Below, piece after piece: positions 3,154 to 51,417 of a DNA stretch of 59,775 bases (position 1 is its first letter; every line of letters begins with the position of its first letter). The stretch is from Lachnospiraceae bacterium. GTDB taxonomy: Bacteria > Bacillota > Clostridia > Lachnospirales > Lachnospiraceae. Location of the stretch: NCBI GenBank assembly GCA_014239155.1, contig JAAZZQ010000038.1, positions 1-59,775 on the forward strand, written 5' to 3'. The position numbers and the translations under genes were made by a program. The notes below the pieces were generated by a model that was not told the DNA's origin, ran no database searches, and worked only from the letters and a program-made list of their open reading frames with translations.

Positions 3154-3273
3154 CATAAATACCTCTGAAAAAACAAAGGATCTAAGGATTTAAACGCACT
3201 ATTATAATATCACAGAATCCTTTATTTTTCAATGGTTTATTTTTTATACTCATTTTTAGAAAGGACGTGTGAT

Positions 3274-4842: not shown

Positions 4843-5690
4843 CCTTTTTCTCTTCTTTTTATTTTGATACCTTCTGGGCGCATCCTAAGACTCGACTTTA
4901 GCAGATCTCGAATTGTAATTTCCCGCGCGCCATCCATATTGGCATTTCGTGTCTCTAACCGCACCAGATTTGGTATTCCCTGAAGTTGCAACTCTGCTGA
5001 ATCCTCAATTGTAATCACACGTTCTGTTATAGGAATATAATGTGACAATGCATTGAGAAACGTCGTTTTTCCTGAGCCTGTTCCGCCGCTAATAAAAATG
5101 TTATATCCTGCAATCACCAATTTTTGAAGCTCTGCCGCAGCCTCTTTGCTAAGAGAGCCAAAACGAATGAGATCTTCCATAGAAATTGGATGTTCTGGAA
5201 ATCTCCGAATTGTGATAATCGGTCCATTCAATGCTACAGGAGCAAGCACAATATTTACCCGCGAGCCATTTTCTAGTCTTGCATCCGCAATTGGCAATGC
5301 TTCATTGACAACTCTGTTGCACTTTGCCACAATTTGTTGAATAACATTTTCCAACTTTTCTTGTGTGTCAAAATGTTTATCCCACTCATAAATGTGCCCT
5401 GCTTTTTCTACAAAAATATTGTCCGTTCCATTTACCATAATCTCTGTGACATCATTGCTGTCCACTAACTCCTGAAGCACATCCAATTTTCTAATTGCAT
5501 AAAACACACTTTTGCCAAGCTCTTGCCTCTGTGCCAGTGACAACGCATATTTTCTGCCCATCTGTACCACAAGTGTGTCAATCATATCCTGAATTTCAGA
5601 ATCCTCCACTTCTCTTGACAAATCAATTCTCTGCCGAACGGTGTCGCTGATTTGTTCTCTGCACTGCTCATATCTATCCAATTCACTCAC
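4731..5690 (-). pseudogene. tadA: TadA/CpaF secretion ATPase, 5' part, interrupted by the element
   Basis: This encodes the N-terminal 274 or so residues of the ATPase that powers Tad (Flp) pilus assembly at the inner face of the membrane. Walker A GGTGSGKTT is at 202-210, followed by VITIEDSAELQL and the conserved REITIRDLLKSSLRMRPE. Family members are usually 400 residues or longer; here the match stops after RMRPE. Another 45 or so residues are read from the element, overlapping the recombinase gene antisense, so the Walker B and C-terminal regions are missing. It starts at GTG 5690 with an AGAAGG site and overlaps tadZ by 8 bases. The 3' part should lie beyond the element, left of the window, and excision could restore the gene. 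Confidence 0.88.
4860..4885. other. probable attachment-site junction of the element with tadA
   Basis: Reading leftward on the minus strand, the tadA reading frame matches its family up to the conserved RMRPE, then changes to a lysine-rich run that does not. The border is therefore near 4869-4880. The exact crossover dinucleotide cannot be set without the other end of the element, which is outside this window. Confidence 0.65.
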
Positions 5691-6687
5691 CTTCTTCCAA
5701 AACCTCCTTTAATCGGATTCCAACTGAAGATGATGTAAGTTTTTCTAGGTTTCTGCATTGCTCCTCCCAATGTGCAGGCAGAGTAAACTCTGTGATATGT
5801 TCTAGAATTTTATTGTACTCTTTTGCGTGTAAAAGTTTCTTAAAATGCGATGCCATCGCCTGTCCATAAATGGTTGTGTCATCTGTCAAAAGATAAATTT
5901 TATTGCTTTTTTCAAGCATATCGTAAAATCCTTGGCAAACTTCTGACAAATCCAATATAATCCAATCATAGTCGCTGTTATATAAAAGCAAACTTAAAAA
6001 TCGTTCCCACGCATCGCGTTCTATTGCAAGCAGGTCTGCATAATCTAGTGCCGGCGGAAGATAATCCGCGCCATGAATACAGCGTTTTAGACTGTCGAGT
6101 TTATAGGATAACTTTTCAGAATGATTGAGTACAAAGTACATAAAATCGGTTATGTCCGCCTCATAGCTTGTCTGCATAAGTTCTTCAAATCCACTAAATG
6201 CAAGAAGATTAATGTACAACACTCGATGCCCTTTATCTGCCAATAGCTCTGCTGCGCAAAGTGCTGCCACGCTCTGACCTTTATACCTATCTGGCGCATA
6301 AAAGCTAACCAGCGATGTTTTATTTTTACTGCATCTATTGGTTGTTGTACAGTTTTCATCTAGCGCAAATTCTGCAAGTACCTGCGTAATCATACGTTCC
6401 ATAGATTGATATTTTGCCACCACACTATATCCAGTAACTTCCTTTGTTCCATCCTCTTGCAAAATACAGACTTTTTTTGCATTAATCTTTGTGATAGTTG
6501 AATCATATATCTCTTCGCCGACAAGCAAAATTTCAAATGCTCCTTCTTTGCTCGCTTCTAGTGCTTTGTTTACGGTGTCAAAAATTAGAACTGTAAAATC
6601 TGCTGCATTTCTTTTTAATAAATACGCCTGCAACATTTTTAGATATTCTTGGTCTTTATCACAGATAGCAAACTTTTTTGCACCCAT
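5683..6687 (-). CDS. tadZ: TadZ/CpaE-like pilus assembly protein
   Basis: A 334-residue protein with a receiver-like N-terminal half (about 1-115) and a MinD/ParA-like C-terminal half beginning near KTSLVSFYAPDRYKGQSVAA. The P-loop is atypical: YKGQS replaces the usual KGGVGKT, so ATP binding may be weak or absent. In the Tad system such proteins localise the pilus machine at the membrane. ATG at 6687 is chosen because AAAGGAGGAG lies 6 bases upstream. It follows the prepilin peptidase gene by 14 bases and overlaps tadA, so the three form one operon. Confidence 0.75.
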   Translation of the reverse strand: MGAKKFAICDKDQEYLKMLQAYLLKRNAADFTVLIFDTVNKALEASKEGAFEILLVGEEIYDSTITKINAKKVCILQEDGTKEVTGYSVVAKYQSMERMITQVLAEFALDENCTTTNRCSKNKTSLVSFYAPDRYKGQSVAALCAAELLADKGHRVLYINLLAFSGFEELMQTSYEADITDFMYFVLNHSEKLSYKLDSLKRCIHGADYLPPALDYADLLAIERDAWERFLSLLLYNSDYDWIILDLSEVCQGFYDMLEKSNKIYLLTDDTTIYGQAMASHFKKLLHAKEYNKILEHITEFTLPAHWEEQCRNLEKLTSSSVGIRLKEVLEEGE

Positions 6688-6701
6688 TTGTTCTCCTCCT
6701 T

Positions 6702-7202
6702 TTAATAAATCCCGACACACAATAGTAACAGACTTAAAAATGCGGGAACAGATAAACGTATCATACTTCTTTTTTGTGTTTTATCCACTTGATATGTATC
6801 AATCGTTCCTGTTAGGGAAACTTTTCTAACATATCTCCCCAGATAGAAAAGACGCTCTCTACTCTCTTTATACAAAACCATTTTGAAAATGGATATTAAC
6901 GCTGCCAAGAACATTGATACAAACAAATAACACAGCAGCTGTTCTCCTCTGATATAACATGCAGTCATCATAAAAAGCTTAATGTCCCCTGCTCCAAGTG
7001 TCTTCAATAAATAAAAGGGATACAAGAACAGAAAGATTACAGTCATTTCTCCCACCAAAACGATTAGTTTTGCCACTGAACCATTCACACCTGTCAGAAT
7101 CAACCCTGCTGCCATTCCAATAGCAATACAGATATTTGGTATTCGATAAAACCGCCAATCCATAAAAATGACAACACAAAACACACCTATGAGGATTCCC
7201 AT
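6702..7202 (-). CDS. tadV: A24-type prepilin peptidase (TadV/CpaA)
   Basis: A 166-residue polytopic membrane protease. The catalytic aspartates are in DWRFYRIPN (about residue 15) and GAGDIKL (about residue 71), spaced as in A24 peptidases. It lacks the N-methylation domain, as expected for the short TadV/CpaA type. It removes leader peptides from Flp prepilins. AAAGGATG precedes the ATG. It is the first visible gene of the minus-strand tad operon, whose tadA is interrupted, so the processed pilins may currently have no working assembly motor. Confidence 0.88.
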   Translation of the reverse strand: MGILIGVFCVVIFMDWRFYRIPNICIAIGMAAGLILTGVNGSVAKLIVLVGEMTVIFLFLYPFYLLKTLGAGDIKLFMMTACYIRGEQLLCYLFVSMFLAALISIFKMVLYKESRERLFYLGRYVRKVSLTGTIDTYQVDKTQKRSMIRLSVPAFLSLLLLCVGIY

Positions 7203-8441: not shown

Positions 8442-10295
8442 TTATTGTAAGAGTTGCAGTACTTGTTGTGGTCTCTCATTTGCCTGTGCAAGCATAGAGG
8501 TAGATGCCTGTACTAGCACCTGCACAGTAGAATACTCTGTCATCTCTGTTGCCATATCCACATCCATAATACGAGAGTAAGCAGATGTAATATTTTCTTC
8601 CGAAGTATCCAAATTGGTAATTGTGTGCTCAAGACGGTTTGCATACGCACCAATTTTTGCGCGGACAGAAGATAGCTGATTAATGGCATCACCAATAATA
8701 TCGATGGCTGCTGTCGCCGACTCTTCTGTGGTAACATCCAGTTTATCTATACCAAGGGCTTCCGCATTTAGTGTAGGGATTTCCAATTCCATATACTGCC
8801 CTTCATTTGCTCCAACCTGTACAATCATTGCCCCCATACCCGTTACATCAAGTAAGATGCAATCATCAACAGTTCCATTTCCTATTGTGTATTCGGTTCG
8901 CGTTGTCTGTGTTACCGAATATTTATAATCTTCCAAATTCTTCTGATGTGCCATCACAGCACCATGCTCATTTAATTCCTGATAGAATGTAAAATCTCTT
9001 GTCTCACTTGGTCCCGGTTGCCCTGTTTTCCCATCTGTAGGAACATAAGTAACCGTAAATTTGGCAGGATTTCCGCCCGCTGCTGCGACAAACTGTACAC
9101 TTTCAATGTCTATACTACAATCAGGGTGTTCTGCCTTAAAATATTCCACAAAATCATCTTTTAGGTCTCTTCCACCATCACCTCGAACTCCAGTAAAATA
9201 TTGTTGTTGCCCATCATTAAGTTCATTGCCTTTAGAATCGACATTACTAAAGAAATTAATTTCACCAATATTGTATCTTTTTCCATCAGGTCCTGTCAAA
9301 GCAATATTTCGATATGTTGTAATTGCACTATAAGAAGTAGTTGTAACTGTTGAACTATTCTCTGTAACATCTTTGCCATATTCTCTCTTAATACTTGTCA
9401 CTCCAGCGGTGGTTCCTGGAGGTGCTGTATTATTGGATACAGTCGTTGTAGTTACCTGTCCAAGTGGTTCCCTATCATTTACTTTAATTTGTATTTCAAA
9501 ATCATTCTCTGCCTTAATAATAATTTTCTCATCTTCTACAATCACTTTGGAACCGTCTGGAAAAGTCTTTATTTGATCGATATCTGAAAACTGATCCACC
9601 GATGCGGTAGTCACAAGCGCATCAAAAATCTTATTGCTATTATTATCTATCTCATACTTCTCATTTTGTGTAATACTTCCTTCTGATGAACTATATTCAA
9701 TATCTATTACTTTTCCGTTCGTATCCTTTATCTTTTTTTCTTCTTGATTATACTTTGTCGTCGTATTCTCATAATGATAATAAGTCAGCTTGCCAATTGC
9801 GTAAGTTCCGCTTGCCACTCCTTCCGTATAGGCCTTTACTTTAATATTTTCTGCATTTGTATAGGATTTAAATGCAAAGCTTCCATCAAGCAAACTCTGC
9901 GCATTAAACTGTGTTGTATTTGCAATTCTGTCAATCTCACCAACTAATTGGTCAATCTCCTTCTGAATCATCTCTCGATCTGACTCAGCATTGGTTCCGT
10001 TTGCTGACTGTATTGCAAGTTCATTCATTCTCTGCATAATATCATGCATTTCTGCCATAGCGCCGTCCGCGGTATTCACAACAGAAAGACCATCATTTGC
10101 ATTTCTGTTTGCCTGTTGTAAGCTGCGAATTTGTGCGTTCATTTTTCTCGCAATTGCCAACCCCGCAGCATTGTCCGCAGCGCTGTTGATTTTATAGCCA
10201 CTTGATAGCTTCTGTGTGGAAGCTGCCACTCTCCTGTCATTATTATTCAAAGCGTTTCTTGCTATAATCGATGAAACATTGTAATTAATTCTCAT
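8442..10295 (-). CDS. fliC: flagellin
   Basis: A 617-residue filament subunit, larger than typical 270-500-residue flagellins. The D0/D1 N-terminal part (1-145) begins MRINYNVSSIIARNALNNND, and the C-terminal D1/D0 ends SMLAQANERPQQVLQLLQ. The central part (about 150-500) is a long variable Thr/Asp/Gly-rich region exposed on the filament. In the TLR5-contact segment, IMQRMNELAIQSAN keeps the Arg aligned with Salmonella R90. GGAGAAATA lies 7 bases before the ATG. The gene is 17 bases downstream of the FliK-like gene and ahead of fliS, so the three are probably cotranscribed from the sigma28-like promoter at 13718. Confidence 0.95.
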   Translation of the reverse strand: MRINYNVSSIIARNALNNNDRRVAASTQKLSSGYKINSAADNAAGLAIARKMNAQIRSLQQANRNANDGLSVVNTADGAMAEMHDIMQRMNELAIQSANGTNAESDREMIQKEIDQLVGEIDRIANTTQFNAQSLLDGSFAFKSYTNAENIKVKAYTEGVASGTYAIGKLTYYHYENTTTKYNQEEKKIKDTNGKVIDIEYSSSEGSITQNEKYEIDNNSNKIFDALVTTASVDQFSDIDQIKTFPDGSKVIVEDEKIIIKAENDFEIQIKVNDREPLGQVTTTTVSNNTAPPGTTAGVTSIKREYGKDVTENSSTVTTTSYSAITTYRNIALTGPDGKRYNIGEINFFSNVDSKGNELNDGQQQYFTGVRGDGGRDLKDDFVEYFKAEHPDCSIDIESVQFVAAAGGNPAKFTVTYVPTDGKTGQPGPSETRDFTFYQELNEHGAVMAHQKNLEDYKYSVTQTTRTEYTIGNGTVDDCILLDVTGMGAMIVQVGANEGQYMELEIPTLNAEALGIDKLDVTTEESATAAIDIIGDAINQLSSVRAKIGAYANRLEHTITNLDTSEENITSAYSRIMDVDMATEMTEYSTVQVLVQASTSMLAQANERPQQVLQLLQ

Positions 10296-10312
10296 GCATT
10301 ATTTCTCCATTT

Positions 10313-13300
10313 CTATATGTCTTTAAGCGCCGTCAAAAATGCTTTTGCAGTCTGATACAACTCTCCTGTGGAGATTTTTCCCACACTTCGATCCTGCCCA
10401 AATCTGGTTAAATCAACAGACTTTGCATGTACTAAACTAATCTGTGTCTGTCGTGTCCCGCTGCTTCTAAGCTCCTGATTTACTGCTTGTTCCAACTGTT
10501 TTAATGAAGCTTTTTCCGACACATTTTCATACACAATCATTCCTGAAATACGGTCTTTAGTGACATCAAACTCTGCTGCCACTTTACCAAGACGCTCTGT
10601 GTCAAGAGTCACTGCCACTTTACCCGTCTGCGACGCATTGTGATAAATCTTTAGATTGACAGAAGTTATCTCACCTTTAATATCCATAGGAATTTCATAA
10701 TTCTCTTCCCTTGCCATATTTCCTGCCAAGGTAAGCCCTTTATACAGTGCTTTTGCGGCTTTTAAGTCAATCTGCGTATTTCCGCTATCATAAATCATAT
10801 GTTCTACAGCTTTGTTTGCCTCACGGATAATTTCCTGATATGATACTGACGCCTGTCCCGCATCTGTCATATGCTCCACAAAATTATCCGCCTGTCTTAA
10901 CACATCACTTTCTATCTGTTCTACATCTGTATTTGTTGTGTCATTAGCCGCATCTGAATCCAATGTCGTCTCGGCATTCTTATTTATCACTTGACGGAAC
11001 AGCAAACCGCGTTCAAAGAGGAGCATGGATGCAGCCTGAATATTATCAACACTAATGGGTTGACCATACGCAATTAGCGCATCAATAATCTGCTCGTCAA
11101 TCTGTTCCACTGTTTGCATATCTTTTTGAAATTCTTTGTGATTGTCCTCCTGTTTTTGTGTCGCCTGAGTGCTATTTTCTGGCACGCGTGCCATTTTCAC
11201 AGTATCTGCAAACTTTTCAATTGTGGTATCCTCTGTAATTTTTTCGGAATTTAGCGCATTGTAATCGGTTCTGTCTGCAAGCTCATCTTTGATTTCACCA
11301 GAAAGTCTTGCATAATATTTCTCCTGTGTACTCTGACCTGTATTTTGATTATCAGCACCACTGTCCCCAGTATGTTGATACCCTGCATTAATTTGTGTAT
11401 CAATAGCATTACCTTTTGTAATTAAATTCTCTAGCGCACCAAAGCCATCATCTATATGGACATCCATATTTTTCTTAGAAGCAGTTCGCACTGCTGAGAG
11501 CATATTTTTAAAATTCATCTGCGCTCCTGACGCGATAAGGCTTCCAATAACAGCACCGTCCGATTTTTCGATCTGACGAAACATGCGATAGATACCAATA
11601 TAAGCCTCGCGCTCCTCTGTGCTAATACTACCTGCCCGATCAAGACGCTGCAAAAATTTGGAATATTTTTCTGCGTCCGCCGCTGGTTCTGCATCTCTGC
11701 TATCCAGATATGCTTCTAGTTCCTCCATTGTCATTTCCAATGGATTTTTTTGTTCCCGTATCATCTGAAGCGTTGCCGCCGGAGTCATTTTTCCAATCAC
11801 ACTTGTCACCTGACTGTCTGCCTCCTTGACAGCATTCACATTATCACTGTTAATGGTCATTCGATTATATCCGAGAATCCGAACTGCACGCCGATTCTCC
11901 TCATTTGTTTCCATTCCCAAATCAGAAAGAATATCGTCTATATTTCGGAATGCCTTGCTAATCTTATCCCCCAAATCCTTGCGCGGTTCTGTCATTAATG
12001 TCTCATATGCAACAGAAGCTTTTCCCTGCTGATTTGAATTCTGTTGATTCTGTCCGCCAAGCTGATTTTGAAGTTCTTTTCCTGCCTCATGAATCCGCAA
12101 CAGTGTGCTATTTGGTATCTTTGACAACAATTTTCCAAGTACTGCTGCTGGCATATCTGCCAACTCTTTTGTTGTCTCTAATGTCTCCTTATATAATAGA
12201 GCTCGCTGCGTATTTTCCTCTGGGTTCTCTCCCTGAAAGAGAACTGCCTTCATACGATCTTCCGCTGCTTTTAATGCCTCTACTAACTTTGATAACTCCG
12301 TTGTATCAATAGAAATTCCTGTTTTTAAAAGATGCCTGTTTGCCTCCTCTGTCATCATAAGACGAATTTCTTCAAGCTGCCTTCTCGCCTGCATCTCCTT
12401 TAACTCTGTCTCAGATGGAAGATTTGCAGTGTCTGTAATTTCCTCCTCTGTTTCTGGCGCATAATCAGCCTGACTGTCAATCTGCTGTTGCGCTTCTGTT
12501 AAATTCTTAAGATTCATTTCCTTTCCAGATACAACCGTCTCATGTATTGCCGCGTCTGTAATCTGGTCTGTCTGCTCTTTTATCTCATGCGCACGGACTG
12601 CAATCGACACCTCACCTGTCATATCTGCCTCTTCTGGTGCTTTTCCATTCTCCATTGCAATAACACACAAATCTGCAATATCATTTTGGTTCATTGGAAA
12701 CGAAAGATTCTTTAAGGCTGTCAGTTTTTCAAGGTTCTGCGCAGTCAACTCAATTCCAGATGCCACCAACCACTTTGCATTCTCAACAGCCTGTGCCTTT
12801 GTGTCTGCATCTGTATCTAGTCCTGCCTCCTGCACCACTGTTTCTATACTCCCTTTTAAGTTATCCCAGTTAATACTATCTGCTTTCTTTGCATAATATT
12901 TTCCGTAGTTTCCCGTCCCTTCACTGTAATAGCCTTGGGACTGTTGAATATTACCTGTGCTGGAATACTGTGCTTTGTACAAATTTTCTATTGTGGGCGT
13001 CTTTTTGTTCACAATCAAATATTTCATCGCATCTTCTGTGAGCCCACTAATACTGTCCGCCTTCAGAACTGCTTCAACCAACTCTGTAATATTTTCATCT
13101 GTGACAGGCATGTCACTCTTTTGTAGTGCGTCAGATAATTTTCCCACTAATTTATTGATTAGAGCACCCGCATTTGCCCTATTTCCCACAATCTGTTCGA
13201 CTGTCTCTAAATCTAAATCATCATTGTATCCTGATACTTCCACTCCTGCCTGCGCCAGTGTTACCTTTATCTTATCTACAATTGTCACAAAAGTCTCCAC

Positions 13301-13618
13301 ATCAACACTTCCCGGTGTGAATCCTTCTTCCTGCATCTTCTGCAAATCTTCCCCGGAAACGCAACTGGACATCACTATCATAAAGTCTTTTTTGGATTGC
13401 GCATTTGAATTAGCTGCCTGCTGCATAATATCATCTGTAGTCATTCCATGACTTCCATATGCTTCGTTATCCATAACTTTATCAGCGATGCCCAGTGTAT
13501 ATCCGCTCCTAGATACCTTTCCCGTATCTGTTGCGGCTGGTTTATATGTAGTTGTTGTAGTTGATTCGGTATTTACTGACACAGAAGGAGTATAATTTGT
13601 GTCAACAGTAAAATTCAT
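10313..13618 (-). CDS. giant FliK-like flagellar protein (DUF6240-type)
   Basis: A 1101-residue, Gln/Glu/Asp-rich, mostly helical protein. The first 900 residues contain repeated helical modules of the form TEENITELVEAVLK or QNLEKLTALKNL, which resemble the DUF6240 proteins of Lachnospiraceae flagellar loci. The last 130 residues (SVNLKIYHNASQTGKVAVTL, LGKVAAEFDV, then LKQLEQAVNQELRSSGTR) have the beta-sheet-then-helix pattern of the FliK hook-length-control C-terminal domain. ATG at 13618 is preferred to 13624 because AGGG lies 7 bases upstream. It probably acts as a secreted ruler/switch or filament-associated protein. The exact role is inferred. Confidence 0.6.
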   Translation of the reverse strand: MNFTVDTNYTPSVSVNTESTTTTTYKPAATDTGKVSRSGYTLGIADKVMDNEAYGSHGMTTDDIMQQAANSNAQSKKDFMIVMSSCVSGEDLQKMQEEGFTPGSVDVETFVTIVDKIKVTLAQAGVEVSGYNDDLDLETVEQIVGNRANAGALINKLVGKLSDALQKSDMPVTDENITELVEAVLKADSISGLTEDAMKYLIVNKKTPTIENLYKAQYSSTGNIQQSQGYYSEGTGNYGKYYAKKADSINWDNLKGSIETVVQEAGLDTDADTKAQAVENAKWLVASGIELTAQNLEKLTALKNLSFPMNQNDIADLCVIAMENGKAPEEADMTGEVSIAVRAHEIKEQTDQITDAAIHETVVSGKEMNLKNLTEAQQQIDSQADYAPETEEEITDTANLPSETELKEMQARRQLEEIRLMMTEEANRHLLKTGISIDTTELSKLVEALKAAEDRMKAVLFQGENPEENTQRALLYKETLETTKELADMPAAVLGKLLSKIPNSTLLRIHEAGKELQNQLGGQNQQNSNQQGKASVAYETLMTEPRKDLGDKISKAFRNIDDILSDLGMETNEENRRAVRILGYNRMTINSDNVNAVKEADSQVTSVIGKMTPAATLQMIREQKNPLEMTMEELEAYLDSRDAEPAADAEKYSKFLQRLDRAGSISTEEREAYIGIYRMFRQIEKSDGAVIGSLIASGAQMNFKNMLSAVRTASKKNMDVHIDDGFGALENLITKGNAIDTQINAGYQHTGDSGADNQNTGQSTQEKYYARLSGEIKDELADRTDYNALNSEKITEDTTIEKFADTVKMARVPENSTQATQKQEDNHKEFQKDMQTVEQIDEQIIDALIAYGQPISVDNIQAASMLLFERGLLFRQVINKNAETTLDSDAANDTTNTDVEQIESDVLRQADNFVEHMTDAGQASVSYQEIIREANKAVEHMIYDSGNTQIDLKAAKALYKGLTLAGNMAREENYEIPMDIKGEITSVNLKIYHNASQTGKVAVTLDTERLGKVAAEFDVTKDRISGMIVYENVSEKASLKQLEQAVNQELRSSGTRQTQISLVHAKSVDLTRFGQDRSVGKISTGELYQTAKAFLTALKDI

Positions 13619-13656
13619 ACACATTCCCTACTCTTTCCGTCAGTCCTATTTATTAT

Positions 13657-15974: not shown

Positions 15975-16742
15975 TTAACAGGAAACATCGATAGACACAC
16001 TTTGCTTCCCTTTGCGCGTCTCGCCAGCTACTTCCACAAATTGAAATCTGCCAAAGCCTCGCACAGACACCTTGTCACCCGGTTTTAGCTGCCCACCATT
16101 ATTTTCATTTAACCGACCATTTACAAAAATCTTCTTTGCCCGAAAAAGTTCCACACTCTCACTTCTTGATAAATTGTAAACTTTTGCAATAATACTATCT
16201 GCACGCACTGTATTCACCTGCACAACCCTGCGCTCTGTTTTTGTAATTGTACTCTCTGGTATATTTACTGCGTGCAGACATTTCACATTAGTATGCCGAA
16301 TCTTATCCAAATTTTCTATAATATAAGGCTCCATCTTATCCGTACAAAATACGAATGCATGTTTTCCTTCAATTATAATGTCTCCAAGGGTGCTGCGCTC
16401 AATTCCTAGATTCATCAGTGCCCCTAGATAATCTCTATGCCCAAGATCCTCACTAAACTTCTCAACGAGCGGCACAATCTCAATACACTGGATTGGAAAT
16501 GCCTCCTCATACCCACAAAGTTCCTCATTTCCAAAGCGTAACATAACACGCTCACAGTCCGCAGTCCCGCCAAATACAGTGACTGACACATAAGATAATT
16601 CCCGCTCCATGCGATAATATAAATCAAGTTCTGCCACTGTCAAAAAACCTGTGAAAAAATACTGACCATTTTGATAGGCTCTGTCCGCAAGCTCCTTTAG
16701 GCGCTTGCGAAAAAGTACTTCCTCAGAATCCACATAAATCAC
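15975..16742 (-). CDS. YlmH-like S4 domain RNA-binding protein
   Basis: About 255 residues. The C-terminal S4 domain (about 180-245: VRADSIIAKVYNLSRSESVE, then FRAKKIFVNG and LKPGDKVSVRGFGRF) binds structured RNA. The N-terminal 170 residues match the YlmH family, linked to cell division loci and to rescue of stalled ribosomes in Firmicutes. The first start is GTG at 16742, directly against the AAGGGG site; a GTG at 16733 has better spacing and may be the real start. It is 72 bases downstream of the McrBC-like operon. Confidence 0.8.
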   Translation of the reverse strand: MIYVDSEEVLFRKRLKELADRAYQNGQYFFTGFLTVAELDLYYRMERELSYVSVTVFGGTADCERVMLRFGNEELCGYEEAFPIQCIEIVPLVEKFSEDLGHRDYLGALMNLGIERSTLGDIIIEGKHAFVFCTDKMEPYIIENLDKIRHTNVKCLHAVNIPESTITKTERRVVQVNTVRADSIIAKVYNLSRSESVELFRAKKIFVNGRLNENNGGQLKPGDKVSVRGFGRFQFVEVAGETRKGKQSVSIDVSC

Positions 16743-16814
16743 CCCCTTACTGTTCCAATCCTTGAAGATACTCTCTATCCCACAAAAATTGTATGTTTGT
16801 CTGTGTATTCATTA

Positions 16815-18599
16815 TCACTCTTTCTCCATAAGCTTTTTCTTTAGTCCCTTTGCCAATTCACATCTGTCTTTTATCTGTTCAATCTCAGACATTAATATCG
16901 TTTTTAACTCATTGACCATCTGACCACTCTCAGAAGCCTTAAAGCTTTTCACCAGCACACCAAAATCTGTCTGTTCCTGTCCATCACCCAAATCATCAGG
17001 TGTCAACACAATTACTTTTGTGACAGGACGCATATTGAGCAATTCCCCTATTCCTCCAAACAATATGCGCGAGCGGGCATTATTATAGTAGGCTTCCAAC
17101 TGCCCTCTGCTTGAGCGCGGAGAATTTTCTGTCCAGAAGGAATTGAGTTTTCTGTATTTACACTCTATAATAATTGTTCCTAGATACCACTGTTCCTGAA
17201 TGTCATAAATGTGAACCAACAAATCCGGTCTGTTATGATTTCGGTAATCGCTGTGATGCCTTGCCATATACAATGGTTGTTCCAGAGAAGTCTCTTCCTG
17301 TTTTAGCGGAAGACAAATATCATAGATTACTTCCAACCGCAAATGATTCTTTTCAAATCGTATGGTTTTTCCCACATCAAGAAGTGGCAATAACATTCTA
17401 TCCGCATCGGCGTCGCGCTCTCCATTCGGCACAAAGGTATACTCTGACATAAAAATGCGACAAATTTTAAGATAACACCACATTTCATACATATAACTAC
17501 TGGATTTCCATGTATAAGAAAACGCTGTTTTCAGCCCTAAATCAATCTCCTCCCGCTTTAAATCAAGATGCATTTGATATAAAAGGCTATATCTGGAATC
17601 CAAAATTAACGCATGTGGGACATAAGGGTCCCGCAAATCTTGTATTGACGCATACCATTTCTGCGACTTTAATATTGCTGTCATTTTTCGCAACCGAATT
17701 GCCCGTTCTTTAAATTCCTCCAGATTATTTTTCCATGAGATTCTACTCTGCGAAGCGCCGCCATCCATCTCATCAATCAGATAGATAAACTGCTCTAGCT
17801 TTTTCTCATAATCCAAAATAATTCTCTTTAAAATGCGATTTTCCTGAATATCATAGTTCACTGTCTTCACTGGAATTTTGTAGGTTGGCTCAGAACCTGA
17901 CCGCACAGCAAACCGTCTGACTGTCTCCGCATCAAAACTGTAGTTCTCCCCCTCATTTTGAGATACATTCTCATAAACTGTAATAATCTCGCTTCTTGGA
18001 TTGCTAGAAATATCTGTCAGAGCCATCATAACCTTGTTGGAATACTTTCGCATAATCAAAAAATTATAAATCACCTTGGGTGGAATGTTTTCATGATTGT
18101 TTCCCATGCCAATGCTGCTGCGAACAATATCCTGTGACAAATCACGAATCTCGCGCTCAAGATCATCCCGCATCATCTGCCACTCTTCAATTGCAATTGG
18201 TTTTGGAAGGATCTGTAAAGTTCCATAATACCATTCTTTCTGACACAATACAGCAATGCGGAAGGTATCCACACGCAGGGCATCATATCCCCTGCCGCTT
18301 CTATACAACGCAAAACAGTCTGGGGAAACAGCTCTGTAAATCCTGCCATGACGATCCTCCTTGATATACAAATCATCTGTGGGTATCCTATCCAACGCCT
18401 CTAAATACAGCCGTGCCTCTGGGTCCTCCGCATTGAAATACAAATCCATCTCTTCGTTTTCTTCCACAGACAGTGTAATAATACTGTCCTTCCAAATGTC
18501 TTGTTCTTCCTTGCAAAATACCCTTGCTTCCTGAATTGTCTCCACCGGATAGTTCTGTATCAGCTTGAGCGTAAATGGCAGATCAGATACAATATCCAT
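16815..18599 (-). CDS. McrC-like DUF2357 protein with PD-(D/E)XK nuclease domain
   Basis: A 594-residue protein. The N-terminal two-thirds resemble DUF2357, the region that joins McrC-type nucleases to their AAA+ partner. The C-terminal nuclease core has RPDLLVHIYD (Asp about 459), TIIIECKYRK (Glu479, Lys481) and RSSRGQLEAYY, the full PD-(D/E)XK metal-binding signature. It probably cuts nucleic acid when driven by the motor gene at 18583, with which it overlaps by 17 bases. AGAAGGAG is 10 bases upstream of the ATG. All catalytic residues appear intact. It is the last gene of a three-gene operon. A defence role is inferred from the McrBC family. Confidence 0.8.
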   Translation of the reverse strand: MDIVSDLPFTLKLIQNYPVETIQEARVFCKEEQDIWKDSIITLSVEENEEMDLYFNAEDPEARLYLEALDRIPTDDLYIKEDRHGRIYRAVSPDCFALYRSGRGYDALRVDTFRIAVLCQKEWYYGTLQILPKPIAIEEWQMMRDDLEREIRDLSQDIVRSSIGMGNNHENIPPKVIYNFLIMRKYSNKVMMALTDISSNPRSEIITVYENVSQNEGENYSFDAETVRRFAVRSGSEPTYKIPVKTVNYDIQENRILKRIILDYEKKLEQFIYLIDEMDGGASQSRISWKNNLEEFKERAIRLRKMTAILKSQKWYASIQDLRDPYVPHALILDSRYSLLYQMHLDLKREEIDLGLKTAFSYTWKSSSYMYEMWCYLKICRIFMSEYTFVPNGERDADADRMLLPLLDVGKTIRFEKNHLRLEVIYDICLPLKQEETSLEQPLYMARHHSDYRNHNRPDLLVHIYDIQEQWYLGTIIIECKYRKLNSFWTENSPRSSRGQLEAYYNNARSRILFGGIGELLNMRPVTKVIVLTPDDLGDGQEQTDFGVLVKSFKASESGQMVNELKTILMSEIEQIKDRCELAKGLKKKLMEKE

Positions 18600-20526
18600 A
18601 TGCTTTCAGCTCCTTCTGTTTCTGTGTAATCATTTCCCTGCACTTCTCAAATTCTGATAGATCTTGATATTGGTCAAAAATCCGCTCAAAATTGTTGGTA
18701 CTATTCTTGTCCAAAATCGCTCCCAACTGACTTTCTGGTCCTCGCACTTTAGTCAATACACGCTGTACCACCTGATAGTCAAGTGCTGTCCTCTGATCAA
18801 AATTGTCAATAATTTCCTGTGGGAGATTGTTGATATACATCTCTATAGATTTGACGATGCGTGGTCCAATTCCATATTTTGTACTTGCACACTGCATCAG
18901 CTGATGAATATCCCACAACAGTTCATGCAGGCGATTTGCATGGTGCGCGGGTCCCTTTACCAAAAGCCTTGCATAATCGTTGGAAGACCATATGACTGGG
19001 CGTTTTGTCGCATAAGGTTTGTCTTTCCACTCTGTAGCATAATTGAGCACATTCAACTGAATGACATTCGCCCGGTCCAACACTTTGTCAGAAAAATGAT
19101 AAGTTGACTCATCTACATTGACTGTTCCCACAAAACGAATATTGTCCCCAATCTTTATTTTGTATGGATAATCTTTAGAATTATACAATCTGCCAATATA
19201 CTGCTCATCATAGAGTTGCAACTCTCGCTTTTGGCGCTCAAGAATCGATAAAAATTGACTGAAATAATGCTCTACCCGCGCCAGATTCATCTCGTCAAAA
19301 CAAACCAGATACATCTTGTCCGAATTATTTTGTGCACTGACCAACAAGTCAACAAATCCTGTGTCGGATGGTCTGTATACCATGTGCACCAAGTCGACAT
19401 ATCCAAGCAAATCTGCATCGTCATTCCACGACGGTCGCACTGGAATCACCAAAAGTCTATCTTCAATGCCCAGTGCCTTTGCATAAACCTCTACCAATTG
19501 GGACTTTCCAGTGCCACTCAGACCAGATAAAATAACCAGACTGCTGCATTTAACTGCGGTGTGTACATTGACAAAATCCCGCATACTATAATACAGTCCA
19601 TCCCGCTGGCTGTGATAATCCATTGATTGAATTATCATCTCATCTGTCTTTTCTGTAATGTCAATCTCAATCAATTTCTCATTGCTAAATTCATTTACCT
19701 CCCGTATATCTGTTGGCACAGTGATTTCAACTTTTTCCTCAATACTCTTTCCTGTCTTTTTCCGCGTGACAGAATCTTTTAAAATCGCATCCTCAATATC
19801 CTTGTATATTGCTTCTGGCACAAAGAGAATTGTTGGATTTGCATTCATATCATACACAACAAATTTAATGTAATCGCTGATATTAACTTTAAATATATCA
19901 CTCCCTTCCAATATAATCCCGCCTAGCGAATCATATGTAATATCTGTGATTCCACCTATGGCATAGAGCCTCCCCTCCGTATCTTTCCAGACGACAAAAG
20001 AAGGTTTGAACGAATCAAGGTCATATCCATATAGACTGCCAACAGAGCGCTTCTCATAGATGTAGTTTTGAAATTCTCCAAGGTTTGCATAGTCCCGCCA
20101 CAGATTAAAACGCTGTCTGCTGCACCAATCCATAATAATCCTATCGCCCTCCGCCGCGAAAACGGGGACTGCAAAAAAGCGCATATTTATGTCAAATGCA
20201 TTGGGCTTAGCCACTAGGTTCGCCTTTCTTACTTTCGCAAAATCTCCGCCCGTCTTGTAGGAAAAAATAAGCAACTGTTTGCTAATCCATTCCCGAAAAA
20301 TTTCGGATCGTTCAGAATCATCAAGATAAGTGTCATCTTCAAACTCAATTTCATCTTCAAAGGAGCTAAGATATCCTGTAAAATATTCTGCCTCTCCCTG
20401 TGGAATACTAAGTGATTTTAATGTGTATTGAATCGCTGAGCTTCTATTGATAAAAACACTGTTATTTTTTAGTTCTTCATCACGAACCAATACTCCTATG
20501 ATCTGTCTGTCCTCCGTCTGCATCAT
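18583..20526 (-). CDS. McrB-like AAA+ NTPase
   Basis: A 647-residue motor. Residues 1-320 are an N-terminal region rich in beta strands that I do not recognise, probably for target recognition. The AAA+ domain follows: Walker A GLSGTGKS at 335-342, Walker B LVCFDEMNLARVE at about 407-419, and sensor region VGTVNVDESTYHFSDKVLDR, close to the McrB consensus. McrB proteins use GTP to translocate and activate McrC; nucleotide preference cannot be read here. A ribosome site GGGAGG precedes a double ATG. It overlaps the coiled-coil gene by 47 bases and the nuclease gene by 17. Confidence 0.85.
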   Translation of the reverse strand: MMQTEDRQIIGVLVRDEELKNNSVFINRSSAIQYTLKSLSIPQGEAEYFTGYLSSFEDEIEFEDDTYLDDSERSEIFREWISKQLLIFSYKTGGDFAKVRKANLVAKPNAFDINMRFFAVPVFAAEGDRIIMDWCSRQRFNLWRDYANLGEFQNYIYEKRSVGSLYGYDLDSFKPSFVVWKDTEGRLYAIGGITDITYDSLGGIILEGSDIFKVNISDYIKFVVYDMNANPTILFVPEAIYKDIEDAILKDSVTRKKTGKSIEEKVEITVPTDIREVNEFSNEKLIEIDITEKTDEMIIQSMDYHSQRDGLYYSMRDFVNVHTAVKCSSLVILSGLSGTGKSQLVEVYAKALGIEDRLLVIPVRPSWNDDADLLGYVDLVHMVYRPSDTGFVDLLVSAQNNSDKMYLVCFDEMNLARVEHYFSQFLSILERQKRELQLYDEQYIGRLYNSKDYPYKIKIGDNIRFVGTVNVDESTYHFSDKVLDRANVIQLNVLNYATEWKDKPYATKRPVIWSSNDYARLLVKGPAHHANRLHELLWDIHQLMQCASTKYGIGPRIVKSIEMYINNLPQEIIDNFDQRTALDYQVVQRVLTKVRGPESQLGAILDKNSTNNFERIFDQYQDLSEFEKCREMITQKQKELKAYGYCI

Positions 20527-21529
20527 CCTTTTTTCCTCCCTGACTTACTGTGTTAATCAAATCTTCCATTGTCAAAAACTGTCTCAACCGCTTTCCAATA
20601 CATTCGCTAATCTCAGATACCAAATGATAGGGAAACTGTTTCTGGACAAGCCATACCTCCGAATAACCTCCATTGACTGCCTCCTCCTTCGCTATCTCAT
20701 CCCATTCATGAATCATCTTAATATCATATCCCGGAAAATCAATCTTATTTTTTGTCTTTGCAATACATAATAATTTGGGTGCATGTTTCCTATAAAGTTC
20801 TAATTCCTTTAATTGTTTCATAAGTATTTCAATCTGTTCTTTGAGTGCCACATTCTGTCGCTCTATCGTCTCTCGCCTTCCAATTTCTTCATTTTTTTCC
20901 ACCTGTATCTGTTGTATTTGATTCTTCAATTCTCCAATCTGCCTAAAAAAGCGGTCCTTTGCCTTCTCTTGTTTGAGTATATTGTTTTGCAGATTGTCAA
21001 TCTCTATTTTGTACTCTTGAATTATACCTTTATATTTTTTATTTTTTTCCTTTATAATTAACAGTTCCTGCGCAATTTGTTCCATTTTCTTTGTCAGTGC
21101 TACACTCTCACTTTTTTCCTCCTGTTCTCGATTCTGCTCCTGACTTTGCGGCTCTTTTTCTTCTTTCTTTTCTGTAGCTGCGCTATCTAGCTCTTTCTTG
21201 TCATGTGTCAACTTTCTTAAATATTCCTCAACTCCAGCGTGTGTATACTCCCCTTTCATCCACTCACCCGCAAGATGATAAATAATATTTTCTTCATTAA
21301 TTTTTCTTCGTTCCGCCATCGTATCCAAAACGAGCTGATATGGATATTTTCCGCCGCGCCGCGCCCGTTTTGCCATACACGCATAAACTGCCCGCGGCGG
21401 CGCTTTACTCACATTTTTGGAAAATCCATCTACCACAAATCCCTTCTCAGCCGCTCCCTTGACGACAAGTCGCTGATCTTCCTCTGCAAGTTGCAAATAC
21501 AGTGCCCGCGTCAGCTCTAATTCATTCAT
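20480..21529 (-). CDS. coiled-coil protein of the McrBC-like operon
   Basis: A 349-residue protein and the first gene of the operon. Residues 1-110 form a basic globular domain (RALYLQLAEEDQRLVVKGAA, then MAKRARRGGKYPYQLVLDTM). Residues 115-150 are a Glu/Gln/Lys linker. Residues 150-250 are a long coiled coil (heptads in KKMEQIAQELLIIKEKNKKY and onward). The last 85 residues are a compact alpha/beta domain (LCIAKTKNKIDFPGYDI, SEVWLVQKQFPYHL). Coiled-coil partners are known in CoCoNuT-type McrBC relatives, predicted to act on RNA or translation, but this protein is not certain to be one. The 47-base overlap with the AAA+ gene implies cotranslation. Confidence 0.6.
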   Translation of the reverse strand: MNELELTRALYLQLAEEDQRLVVKGAAEKGFVVDGFSKNVSKAPPRAVYACMAKRARRGGKYPYQLVLDTMAERRKINEENIIYHLAGEWMKGEYTHAGVEEYLRKLTHDKKELDSAATEKKEEKEPQSQEQNREQEEKSESVALTKKMEQIAQELLIIKEKNKKYKGIIQEYKIEIDNLQNNILKQEKAKDRFFRQIGELKNQIQQIQVEKNEEIGRRETIERQNVALKEQIEILMKQLKELELYRKHAPKLLCIAKTKNKIDFPGYDIKMIHEWDEIAKEEAVNGGYSEVWLVQKQFPYHLVSEISECIGKRLRQFLTMEDLINTVSQGGKKDDADGGQTDHRSIGS

Positions 21530-22156: not shown

Positions 22157-22744
22157 ATGCAAAAAATCAGAAAACGTTACGCAGAGTGTTATTCTGGTGC
22201 GTTCCAACAGTTAAAAATCACGCACAACCTAGTGCTCTGTGGACTAATGGCGGCGTTGGCAGTTGTACTCAACTACACCACATCCATCTTTATCACCCCA
22301 AATATACGTATTGGTTTCTCAGGTCTTCCAAACCGCATTGTCGAATATTTATTTGGACCTTGTATTGGCGCTGTCTTTGGCGGTATGCTTGATATTTTAA
22401 AATATTTGTTAAAGCCAGATGGCGGCGCCTTTTTCTTTGGTTACACCTTTAATGTTATGGTTGCAGGCGTCATTTATGGCACAATTTTATATCAACGGCC
22501 AGTTCGGCTTTGGCGTATTTTTATTGCAGAGTTTCTGACAAAGACAATTGTCAACTGCGGTCTAAATACACTGTGGCTTGCCGTTATGAATGGAAATGCT
22601 TTTTTGGCAATTTTGCCCGCACGCGTAATAAAAAATATCATTATGTTGCCAATTGATACTGCAATTTTATTTTTTACGCTCACGTTTGTATCTCGCCTGC
22701 TAAATATGACCGAATTTCGCAAATTTCGGGGTGGGAAATTTTAG
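22157..22744 (+). CDS. folT: folate ECF transporter substrate-binding subunit FolT
   Basis: A 195-residue, six-helix membrane protein that binds folate and works with the shared EcfAA'T energy module. The signature RIGFSGLPNRIVEYLFGP and GGMLDILKYLLKPDG match FolT S components. AAAGGAGGC lies 7 bases before the ATG. It follows the THF riboswitch candidate, so folate level probably controls uptake. The first 20 residues are a basic cytoplasmic tail. No ecf genes are nearby, as is usual for group II ECF systems. Confidence 0.9.
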   Translation: MQKIRKRYAECYSGAFQQLKITHNLVLCGLMAALAVVLNYTTSIFITPNIRIGFSGLPNRIVEYLFGPCIGAVFGGMLDILKYLLKPDGGAFFFGYTFNVMVAGVIYGTILYQRPVRLWRIFIAEFLTKTIVNCGLNTLWLAVMNGNAFLAILPARVIKNIIMLPIDTAILFFTLTFVSRLLNMTEFRKFRGGKF

Positions 22745-24549: not shown

Positions 24550-26430
24550 TTAATCACTGATAATATTAACCTGCGTCTCATCCAAAACGCGCAGGTTGTT
24601 AACCGGATTTCCCTTGCAGTTTACCTGCCGCAAAGAAGGCAGTGAGGACAAAACATGTATATCTGATACATAATTGTCTGAAAAGTCAATCTCTTCCAAA
24701 TTTGTAAGATTTGTAGCAAAATCAAGCTCCTTAATTTTATTGTCTGCCACATTCAGCTTTTTTAGATTAGGAAAACGTGTTATAAAATCTGTATGCTCTG
24801 CCAAATACACATCATCCCATGACACATCGACAATTCCATTTCCTCCTGATACCTGCACATTTTCATAAAGTTGCACACCAGCTATTTCAAGTGCCTGTAA
24901 AGAAGGATTTTCTGCAACTTTATCAAAATTAATTTCACACTCCATACCACTGATATCAAGATTTTTTAGCTGCGGCAGTGCAAAGATTCCTGAGATATCT
25001 TTGTAAGTCACCATTCCTCCTAGATCGATCTCCTCCAATGCAGTGAGACTTTTTATAAAATCCAGCGACATATCCCCGGAATGCGAAGTGCAAGTCAACT
25101 TTCGCAACTGTGTCAATCCTGATAAATTTAGATTGGGTGACAGTCTACAGCCATTTAAACTTAACGTCTCAAGGTTTGTCAAATTGGAAAGAAAATCACA
25201 GGAATCAAATCTTTTTAGTGTCAGATGTTGAAGTTTTGTAAGCCCTGCCAGTGATGGCTCTGAACAGTTATACGTACATTCTAGTGAGAGCTCTTTCAAT
25301 TCCAAAAGTTTGGTAACGCTGTTCATATCTGTCAACTCATCACAATCCTCAATTGTAAGCTTCTCAAGTTCTGTAAGCGTCTCAAGTCCGCTTAAATCCA
25401 GAAATGCACCATCCAAAAGCCCAAAACTCTTTAGCTGTGGCATTCTTTTTAGAAACTCAAGTGTTTTTAAACTATCTGAATCAATCACTAACTCCTCTAG
25501 CGTTTCGACAGACGCAAGCACAGCAAAATCATTCACTGCATCTGCATTGTTTAGCGTGAGGGATCTCAAATGCTTCAGTACAATCGCTGCATCAATATCG
25601 CTCAATGCACTTGCGTTTACAACAAGCTGTTCTATATTAGGAAATAATTCCAACCCTTGTAAACTTTCAATGCGACCTCCAATCGTAAGCTGTCGTATTC
25701 CACTCGTGTCTTCCAGTTCCTGCGCTGCATCCTCTAACGATTTAATTGGCGCAGAGAGGCTTTCAAGTTGCACTCCCTGCAAATTACATTGGGAAAGCGA
25801 TTCCTTAGTATCCAGTCTTTTTAATCCCTGAAGTCGATATAAACCTGCATACCCGCTCTCACTATGAGCAGGAAATGTAAACCAGTTCAACTCGGCATCT
25901 GGTTTTTCTATAGGATTATCAAAACTGTACCCAATATAACGATAATCAATATCACTGCGGTCTGCAATCCATTGAATCCGCGACAGCTCTTCCTCTGTCA
26001 CGCTATTTACATCCTTACCATAAACAATTGCTACCATCTGCCCCAATATGCCGGAAAACTGTTCTTCCTCTGCCGTCTCCTCAAGCAAAGGATAAAGAGG
26101 CTGTTGAACAGGTATTGGATCTAATACAACATATTTCTGTTTCTGTGCGTCTTTATAATTGCCAACGGCGATTACTCCCCCTATTCCGATCAAAAACAAT
26201 ACAATGCAAAACCATATTGCATTTGAATTATTAGGTTGAATGCTGGGCTGGGGTGATACAGGTTCCCAGTCCGGTATTCTACGCGGAGAAGATTGCTGTC
26301 TTGGAATATCCAAAACATACTCATTACCGCAATATTCGCACTGAACAGACTTTGTATTTTCATCTGGCAGTTTCAAAATCCCCCCACAGCTTGGGCACCG
26401 CATTTCTGTAATCCGTACATGCTCTTCCAA
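24550..26430 (-). CDS. zinc-ribbon, single-TM, leucine-rich repeat protein
   Basis: A 626-residue protein. A CPSCGG...CEYCG zinc ribbon (about 12-38) is followed by a Pro-rich linker and one membrane helix (about 72-92, WFCIVLFLIGIGGVIAVG). The extracytoplasmic region has about 16 SDS22/internalin-like leucine-rich repeats of about 22 residues (ETLTELEKLTIEDCDELTDM). TTG at 26430 is the likely start because GGGAGG lies 10 bases upstream; the frame stays open to 26463 but without a ribosome site. The ribbon would be inside and the repeats outside the cell, suggesting sensing or adhesion. It is in an operon with a lipoprotein gene. Confidence 0.75.
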   Translation of the reverse strand: MEEHVRITEMRCPSCGGILKLPDENTKSVQCEYCGNEYVLDIPRQQSSPRRIPDWEPVSPQPSIQPNNSNAIWFCIVLFLIGIGGVIAVGNYKDAQKQKYVVLDPIPVQQPLYPLLEETAEEEQFSGILGQMVAIVYGKDVNSVTEEELSRIQWIADRSDIDYRYIGYSFDNPIEKPDAELNWFTFPAHSESGYAGLYRLQGLKRLDTKESLSQCNLQGVQLESLSAPIKSLEDAAQELEDTSGIRQLTIGGRIESLQGLELFPNIEQLVVNASALSDIDAAIVLKHLRSLTLNNADAVNDFAVLASVETLEELVIDSDSLKTLEFLKRMPQLKSFGLLDGAFLDLSGLETLTELEKLTIEDCDELTDMNSVTKLLELKELSLECTYNCSEPSLAGLTKLQHLTLKRFDSCDFLSNLTNLETLSLNGCRLSPNLNLSGLTQLRKLTCTSHSGDMSLDFIKSLTALEEIDLGGMVTYKDISGIFALPQLKNLDISGMECEINFDKVAENPSLQALEIAGVQLYENVQVSGGNGIVDVSWDDVYLAEHTDFITRFPNLKKLNVADNKIKELDFATNLTNLEEIDFSDNYVSDIHVLSSLPSLRQVNCKGNPVNNLRVLDETQVNIISD

Positions 26431-26449
26431 TAATATTGCACCTCCCAAT

Positions 26450-27091
26450 CTACTCACCGTCAAACAATGCCTTTTCTAATTCCATAATGTCATCTGCATT
26501 TGGTGTGTATACATTGTCCTCAAGTTCTATTCTAATATTCATTGAGGCGGCTTCCTCATAAGTTACCTCAGACAATACCGTCTCCATGCTTCCTTTAAAT
26601 TCCAGAATTACACGCTCCACAATCTCTTCCTCTGAAGGAACACTATCGCTGTCTTTCCACTCCTCTCCCAGAGCTGCAACTTTCTCCTGATACAGTGTTA
26701 ATGCTGGTTCAAAAATGCGCATTTTTTCGTAAGTTACCGATACAATATAAGAACCATCACTTTGTTTCTCCGCGGTATCAACTGTGTAACGCACTTTTCC
26801 CAACATCTCCATATAGATTTGGCGAAATTCTTCCTTGTAGTCTTCTGATACACCCATTTTGCTGCAAAAAACTCCAACACCGGTATCAATTCCTTGCGCA
26901 TAGAGTGTTTGTGCTTCCTCGGCTTTGCCAAGTTTCATATCCACAAATGCACTGGAATCATTTTTATAAGAAGCATCCAAAAGTGCCTGCAGATAAGTTT
27001 TCACCTTTTTGTCCGATGTACATCCACTCAGAGCACCTACCATTAGGATCGCTGCGAGCACAAACAAGATTCTCTTTAAATATTTCTCCAT
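26450..27091 (-). CDS. putative lipoprotein (DUF5105-like)
   Basis: A 213-residue secreted protein with signal peptide LKRILFVLAAILMVGALSGC (lipobox GALSGC, Cys24). The mature part is acidic and helical (VKTYLQALLDASYKNDSSAF, then EEFRQIYMEMLGKVRYTVDT), with the layout of DUF5105-type lipoproteins of Gram-positive gut bacteria. First gene of the three-gene LRR operon. Its last bases are 20 bases from the preferred start of the LRR gene. Function unknown; it probably acts at the outer face of the membrane. Confidence 0.7.
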   Translation of the reverse strand: MEKYLKRILFVLAAILMVGALSGCTSDKKVKTYLQALLDASYKNDSSAFVDMKLGKAEEAQTLYAQGIDTGVGVFCSKMGVSEDYKEEFRQIYMEMLGKVRYTVDTAEKQSDGSYIVSVTYEKMRIFEPALTLYQEKVAALGEEWKDSDSVPSEEEIVERVILEFKGSMETVLSEVTYEEAASMNIRIELEDNVYTPNADDIMELEKALFDGE

Positions 27092-49689: not shown

Positions 49690-50544
49690 CTATTGACTTT
49701 CCAAATTTGCCAATAAATATTGATATACTTCCCGCTTGGAAATCCCCCGATCCTTCGCCACTCGTTTCATCGCTTCCTTATGTTCGATTCCCTGTGACTC
49801 ATACTGTTGCAAATGAACCTCAATTGAAATTTCCTGCCAGTTGCGCTCTCGTTCTCGTTGAAATTCAGAAAGACTTCTACCCTCGATTACAAGCACATAT
49901 TCACCTTTCGGCTCCTGCGTTTCAAATATCCTACACGCATTTTGCAATGTTGTTAATGTAATTTCTTCAAATTTTTTTGTCAGTTCCCTACAAAGTGTCA
50001 GCTTACGCTCCCCAAGCGAATGATACAACTCATCTAATGTCCGCGCCAAGTGATGTGGGGCCTCATATAAAATAATTGTTCTTGATTCTTTCTGTAAGTC
50101 CCCCAAAATCGCTTTTTTTTCTTTCTTATCTGCGGGCAAAAATCCCTCAAAACAAAACCGTCTTGTACTCAATCCTGAAAGCGTCAATGCAGTGATACAT
50201 GCTGCTGGTCCCGGCAAAGAAGTCACCACAATCCCAGCCTCATAACATTTTTTTACAAGCACTTCCCCCGGATCAGAGATAGCCGGCGTTCCCGCATCTG
50301 TTATCAATGCCACATTTTTGCCCTGATGCATTTGCGCAATTAATACATCAGCCTTCCCAACTTTATTATATTCATGATAACTTGTCATTGGTGTGTGGAT
50401 ATCAAAATGATTTAGGAGCTTTATACTATTCCTAGTATCCTCCGCTGCTATTAAATCGACCATCTGTAATGTCTCCACCACCCGCGACGTCATATCTCTT
50501 AAATTGCCAATTGGCGTTGCGCACAGATATAATTTTCCTGTCAT
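49690..50544 (-). CDS. rsmI: 16S rRNA (cytidine1402-2'-O)-methyltransferase
   Basis: A 284-residue SAM-dependent methyltransferase of the tetrapyrrole-methylase fold. It adds a 2'-O-methyl to C1402 in the ribosomal decoding site. Signatures: LYLCATPIGNLRDMT at the N terminus, DLIAAEDTRNS, ALITDAGTPAISDPGE and SLPGPAACITALTLSGL. ATG at 50544 is used; the GTG at 50556 is too near the AGGTGG site. It is the last gene of the pyk-to-rsmI cluster and ends close to the acpP promoter. Confidence 0.96.
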   Translation of the reverse strand: MTGKLYLCATPIGNLRDMTSRVVETLQMVDLIAAEDTRNSIKLLNHFDIHTPMTSYHEYNKVGKADVLIAQMHQGKNVALITDAGTPAISDPGEVLVKKCYEAGIVVTSLPGPAACITALTLSGLSTRRFCFEGFLPADKKEKKAILGDLQKESRTIILYEAPHHLARTLDELYHSLGERKLTLCRELTKKFEEITLTTLQNACRIFETQEPKGEYVLVIEGRSLSEFQRERERNWQEISIEVHLQQYESQGIEHKEAMKRVAKDRGISKREVYQYLLANLESQ

Positions 50545-50644
50545 CACTTCCACCACCTAACACTAAAAAAATTAATCTCTTGTACCATCAAAACTAATTT
50601 GAACTACAACAAAACATTCTCATAACAAACAGATAATAAATAAA

Positions 50645-51382: not shown

Positions 51383-51417
51383 ACAAAACCCTATTCTGGC
51401 ATTTCCCATCCACCAAA

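Follow-up and report, generated by a model that had tools for sequence, protein, structure and literature searches.

A predicted Type I-B CoCoNuT operon related to McrBC at a variably occupied chromosomal site in a Lachnospiraceae bacterium

A branch of McrB-like GTPases in which the motif NxD replaces NxxD was described by Bell et al. 2024 (PMC11090510). According to that paper, Type I-B CoCoNuT consists of CnuA-CnuB-CnuC and occurs mainly in Bacillota; CnuA possesses a PYD/CARD-like head, a coiled coil and a receiver tail, whereas CnuB, as described there, has no fused coiled coil and 'usually' carries a CSD and 'often' a YTH-like domain. For CnuC, an immunoglobulin-like N-terminal domain is described in addition to DUF2357 and a PD-(D/E)xK nuclease. 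The class was predicted to bind RNA via CSD, YTH-like and other domains, control by a histidine kinase was proposed, and a housekeeping or stress role was proposed for the Pseudo-Type I-B systems of Bacillus, which are described as having no CnuA (PMC11090510). In a second paper, Druantia types I and II, which are anti-phage systems, are now called Type IV CoCoNuT, and ARMADA is a validated system; in the available part of that paper, Type I-B was not among the systems tested (PMC12458937).

The window, that is, the whole stretch of DNA analysed (59,775 nt, contig JAAZZQ010000038.1), contained an operon of 3 genes and 4.7 kb, lying between a ylmH-like gene and the gene for an ECF-transporter substrate-specific component (Table 1). 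Three overlapping genes on the minus strand had been claimed in an earlier note on this DNA, and their coordinates and overlaps proved right to the base, with 47 nt (20480-20526) shared by the genes of CnuA and CnuB and 17 nt by those of CnuB and CnuC. When compared with two congeners (G016/G022), the coiled-coil gene had dN/dS values of 0.125/0.133, the motor gene of 0.042/0.040 and the nuclease gene of 0.060/0.059, with 0.043/0.030 and 0.085/0.065 for the flanking ECF and ylmH genes, respectively. Since the values for the three ORFs were low (about 0.04-0.13), these are real constrained genes and not chance frames.

The locus shares with Type I-B CoCoNuT its gene order, the encoding of the coiled coil as a protein of its own, the NxD motif, DUF2357 together with PD-(D/E)xK, and a host in Bacillota, whereas no CSD, YTH-like or receiver domain was detected here and the phospho-acceptor Asp was not seen in the CnuA tail. 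With a probability of roughly 0.8, the locus belongs to the Type I-B CoCoNuTs, restriction systems of the McrBC type from the NxD branch, and works by the mechanism proposed below for CnuABC; what was observed for it comprises the three-gene unit, the motifs, the clade, carriage on plasmids, and gain or loss. Against this assignment stand the undetected domains, the lack of significance of the structural matches to DEATH folds, one related locus without CnuA, and the small number of phage and viral matches. Judged from its sequence, the locus adds an intact member to a subtype already described, with a function that is predicted. CoCoNuTs had been cited for comparison in the earlier note, but the locus was not recognised as one, although its features match Type I-B. 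Its view of an undescribed module with undescribed sensor domains could not be upheld, since Bell et al. 2024 (PMC11090510) named the arrangement and proposed domains for the N-termini of CnuA and CnuB as well as for the C-terminus of CnuA; the word 'uncharacterised' holds insofar as no experiment on Type I-B, anti-phage included, was found among the open PubMed Central papers listed. Type I-B CoCoNuTs are predicted McrBC relatives in which a restriction motor is joined to a DEATH-like adaptor, and the present locus, being compact, intact and provided with natural neighbours with and without it in one genus, is a practical test case. The present analysis supplements the published description with evidence on clade and hosts, with the mapping of a site of gain or loss next to an Mrr gene, and with the 17-nt overlap; it also casts doubt on the receiver domain.

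Table 1. Positions of the operon, its conserved overlap and its flanking genes in the window
Feature	Position	Strand	Evidence
CnuA-like protein, 349 aa	20480..21529	-	ORF; AlphaFold2 model; equivalent ORF in 22/23 intact loci
CnuB, NxD-branch McrB-like AAA+ GTPase, 647 aa	18583..20526	-	AAA_5; PADLOC PDC-M26A 1.5e-45; NxD motif; clade
CnuC, McrC-like, 594 aa	16815..18599	-	DUF2357 + PD-(D/E)xK (Pfam); catalytic residues intact
CnuB/CnuC overlap, 17 nt, CnuC start within last CnuB codons	18583..18599	-	ATG there in 25/25 loci
ylmH-like gene, downstream flank	15975..16742	-	Pfam YlmH_RBD 3e-17; 37/38 genus genomes
ECF-transporter substrate-specific component gene, upstream flank	22157..22744	+	Pfam ECF_trnsprt 1.3e-11; 35/38 genus genomes

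By homology with McrBC, CnuB would form a GTP-driven AAA+ ring, on which CnuC would dock via DUF2357, stimulate GTP hydrolysis and supply an active PD-(D/E)xK nuclease. CnuA, predicted to combine a DEATH-fold-like head, a coiled-coil rod and an alpha/beta tail, may act as a clustering sensor or scaffold and presumably stands in for the coiled coil that is fused to CnuB in other CoCoNuTs. Recognition of foreign, probably modified, nucleic acid by the CnuB N-terminus and/or CnuA would then activate the complex, and cleavage by the activated complex may lead to restriction of phages or plasmids or to abortive infection.

The McrBC-like nature of the locus, also claimed earlier, was supported; the motifs quoted in that claim, GLSGTGKS and FDEMNLARVE in the motor and RPD, ECK and RGQ in the nuclease, were all located. 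In CnuB, GLSGTGKS began at residue 335, AAA_5 scored above the Pfam cut-off, and the GTPase motif, GTVNVDES, was of the shortened NxD form. NxD was present in 32/32 aligned motors, that of the window included, versus NTAD in E. coli K-12 McrB. E. coli K-12 McrBC and the locus both combine an AAA+ GTPase motor with an McrC-type nuclease partner, but the E. coli system has NTAD (NxxD), no coiled-coil gene, and an overlap of 1 nt between mcrB and mcrC; canonical McrBC was thus rejected on motif (NVD versus NTAD) and architecture. In a comparison with the PADLOC candidate PDC-M26, model PDC-M26A was matched by the motor at 1.5e-45 and model PDC-M26B by the nuclease at 5.1e-4, whereas the best stretch covered only part of each model and the coiled-coil gene was unmatched. 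No paper on the name PDC-M26 was found.

In the window nuclease, DUF2357 and PDDEXK_7 scored slightly below the Pfam cut-off. When 12 family nucleases were scanned singly at E <=1, DUF2357 was found in 11 and PDDEXK_7 in 9, and residues D459, K481 and Q500 were unchanged in 12/12 family members. DNA cleavage would be the most direct reading of this intact McrC-type nuclease, by analogy with McrBC. Alternatively, RNA may be the main target, modified tRNA, rRNA or mRNA being bound, abortive infection following and DNA cleavage being secondary. This possibility, in line with the RNA binding that Bell et al. predict for the class (PMC11090510), is somewhat unlikely, as the sole nuclease encoded is an intact McrC-type PD-(D/E)xK enzyme, a DNase in McrBC, and Pfam detected neither a CSD nor a YTH-like domain. 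As for modification, the earlier description of the operon as type IV-like and without a methylase agrees with a Pfam scan of 36 window proteins, a subset of the window ORFs, which contained no DNA methylase; a methylase-linked RM system was rejected on the same scan. The methyltransferase-type matches among these proteins were at 49690-50556, for a tetrapyrrole methylase, and at 50645-51409, for an MTS-type methyltransferase.

The ATG of CnuC was situated exactly 17 nt ahead of the end of the motor gene in 25/25 loci. It was the start of the longest nuclease frame in 21 loci and the RefSeq start of the nuclease in two others (L038 and L040), while the longest frame began upstream of it in L102 and the nuclease gene was incomplete on the contig in L097. 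At this ATG the motor gene had TAT or AAT as the first codon and GGN or GAC as the next, and neither TAC nor AAC occurred in any of the loci. Outside the clade, the overlap between motor and nuclease genes was 1 nt (E. coli and L043), 26 nt (L044), 35 nt (L051 and L052, from mechanically called ORFs) or none (L046). The 47-nt overlap between the genes of CnuA and CnuB was not kept, their spacing ranging from -58 to +20 nt in 22 loci. We read the 17-nt overlap as a putative conserved translational coupling; being unchanging, it offers a simple signature for the subtype. A fixed stoichiometry, deduced previously from the two overlaps, does not follow from them, because the E. coli complex is given in a review as McrB(6):McrC (PMC12707154).

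A maximum-likelihood tree of the GTPase part was built from the window motor, 52 selected relatives and E. coli McrB. None of these sequences is among those named Type I-B by Bell et al., and the set excluded the split copies L107 and L108, the copy L045, which is disrupted by insertion sequences, and several other loci. In this tree, 23 motors, including that of the window, split off at 98/95 from 30 NxD motors and E. coli McrB, and the window motor belonged to a subclade of 7 rows (100/100). The root is unsure because E. coli forms a long branch, with 140/320 columns filled. A CnuA-like ORF (308-498 aa, with heptad runs) was directly upstream in 22/23 intact loci, in accordance with the conserved three-gene unit that the earlier note had named as a supporting outcome, and one locus (L104) had motor and nuclease without CnuA. 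A CnuA profile made from 12 of the 22 loci found 5 more, giving 17/22, the other 5 being assigned by position and heptads alone. Two other NxD motors of Lachnospiraceae (L057 and L058) lay among secreted- or membrane-looking genes and possibly represent the CoCoPALM of Bell et al., which is a guess.

Within the genus, a full-length motor was present in 3/36 genomes, the window's genome counted, and two others (G024 and G026) gave weak partial matches only. The search of the family (299 genomes) yielded near relatives in G281, G251 and G131, with 55-58% identity in the best segment, and that of the phylum yielded matches at E <1e-100 in 12/397 other genomes, the next being at ~1e-73. A scan of genome contigs gave 2 loci, the named carriers being Lachnospiraceae. 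Intact units with all three genes at full length were found on six plasmids, among 11 records examined from the best 20 listed of 268 matching plasmid records; the carriers were Lactococcus, Companilactobacillus, Lactiplantibacillus, Priestia, Pontibacillus and Paenibacillus, all Bacillota. On the Enterococcus faecium plasmid pE1077-217 (L045), the motor gene was broken by insertion sequences, and an IS30-family gene separated it from the nuclease gene. Three viral-collection scans gave one locus in all, on a 120-kb contig (IMGVR_UViG_2910903598_000004) with an intact three-gene unit, and the matches to 2 phage records were confined to the GTPase part.

The predicted protein of the first gene, CnuA, matched no Pfam family. 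A crude scan gave a longest heptad run of 122 residues in CnuA versus 43 in CnuB of the window. The AlphaFold2 model of CnuA, made from 4 sequences (mean pLDDT 70.8, pTM 0.34), consisted of a six-helix head (residues 1-115; pLDDT about 68-87 by block), a continuous helix corresponding to the coiled coil (136-249) and an alpha/beta tail (250-330) modelled with low confidence as beta-beta-alpha-beta-alpha. Foldseek with this model found nothing significant, the best match (E 0.71) being a designed protein; the best 50 matches listed included 6 CARD or death domains and 2 CENP-N, none significant, with E values of 1.9 at best and TM-scores by target of up to 0.52 for the CARD and death domains. 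The N-terminal domain of CENP-N is pyrin-like. On the model, these matches seem to agree with the published PYD/CARD-like head, without proving it. As a tentative and rather doubtful extension, CnuA may be an inflammasome-like trigger, in which the DEATH-fold head would nucleate assembly and the tail, as a pseudo-receiver without a phospho-acceptor, would read a ligand or protein partner; clustering, instead of the histidine kinase proposed originally, would then act as the switch, and the fast-changing coil would serve as a spacer.

No receiver domain was found in the CnuA tail, either by Pfam or by comparison with a profile of 19 receivers (from 30 loci, after a length and stop filter), for which the receiver-versus-receiver control gave 100% and a control with divergent pseudo-receivers was absent. 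At the column following strand 3 of the tail, Asp was present in 0/22 CnuA sequences, as read from a loose alignment and a weak tail model; one Asp was located one column further and another two columns further. The lack of a phospho-acceptor Asp in a receiver-like tail is a weak argument against control by a kinase. For these 22 sequences, with the tail model weak and the alignment loose, the CnuA data thus appear to lend no support to histidine-kinase control, one of the proposed control routes (PMC11090510), which would fall away if the phospho-acceptor is truly missing. A DUF2325-like tail was considered and dropped for want of a Pfam match.

The N-terminal region of CnuB, ~300 residues, was alignable throughout the family with conserved positions in common. 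CSD and YTH-like domains gave no Pfam match in this region in the window or in scanned relatives of other lineages, and an EVE profile (6 sequences from 12 loci after the same filter, without a positive control) gave no match to CnuB; the structure predicted for CnuB from 4 sequences had a mean pLDDT of 31.6. Identity of CnuA to its homologues in two congeners was 93/85% in the head, 63%/54% in the coiled coil and 91/81% in the tail, and outside the genus it was 12-29%. The latter values, the position of the window in the 7-row subclade (100/100) and the failure of Pfam and profiles to detect similarity to CSD, EVE/YTH and receiver domains would be expected of a variant subtype, in which CnuA and the CnuB N-terminus of Lachnospiraceae had swapped the published sensor domains for others. 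Such a replacement is very unlikely, however, given that the CnuB N-terminus shares conserved positions family-wide and that the domains were equally undetected in the scanned members of other lineages, so that non-detection may only reflect low sensitivity.

Of the two anchor genes, ylmH was found in 37/38 and the ECF gene in 35/38 genomes of the genus. In 32 genomes the two shared a contig in head-to-head arrangement, and these are the genomes counted at the site. The other six lacked an anchor (G028, G030 and G034), had the anchors on different contigs (G024 and G035) or showed another arrangement (G001). The gap between ylmH and the ECF gene measured 5.2-5.6 kb in the 3 operon carriers, whereas 26 genomes had a short gap of 667-1124 bp and 3 with other inserts had one of 1.8-4.7 kb; in G750, outside the motor search, it was 997 bp. 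The other inserts, labelled by eye from translations and not from database matches, were two transporter-like genes (G011, L116), a transposase/nuclease-like gene (G033, L117) and an esterase-like gene (G014, L118). The gap may be an insertion hotspot.

The operon was present at the site in 3/32 genomes, and 26/32 held there only an Mrr-type nuclease gene. Adjoining ylmH in 35/38 genomes, among them each of the 26 short-gap genomes, this gene encodes a small Mrr_cat protein with an apparently hydrophobic N-terminus in G015 (L110:885-1361; PF04471, 5.7e-28) and contains an internal stop in G003. In G022, the genes for CnuA-CnuB-CnuC-Mrr-ylmH were in a row on one strand, whereas CnuABC was present and Mrr absent in G016 and in the window's genome (window 16743-16814). 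The simplest account is one insertion beside mrr, with mrr lost afterwards in one line. Insertion framed by direct repeats was rejected, as only short degenerate matches were observed.

Presence in 3/32 genomes only indicates that the operon was gained or lost as a module, and the check on gain or loss suggested earlier therefore showed it not to be fixed among the 32 readable genomes of the genus. Among the three carriers, operon and anchors diverged in step, indicating vertical inheritance after the insertion. This inheritance, together with a chromosomal location and purifying selection like that on the neighbours, could also be reconciled with a housekeeping or stress role of the kind proposed for Pseudo-Type I-B, without anti-phage function; such a role is improbable in view of the absence of the operon from the site in 29/32 genomes, its carriage on plasmids elsewhere, and the presence here of CnuA, which Pseudo-Type I-B lacks.

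Elsewhere in the window, a leucine-rich-repeat protein gene was flanked by two ORFs without a Pfam match (24550-26463), and a large serine recombinase gene (Resolvase, Recombinase and zinc ribbon) overlapped a T2SSE-type gene on the opposite strand, which was followed by a TadZ-like gene (3232-4842 and 4731-6720). A flagellin gene adjoined that of a 1103-aa DUF6240/Flg_hook protein (8442-13624).
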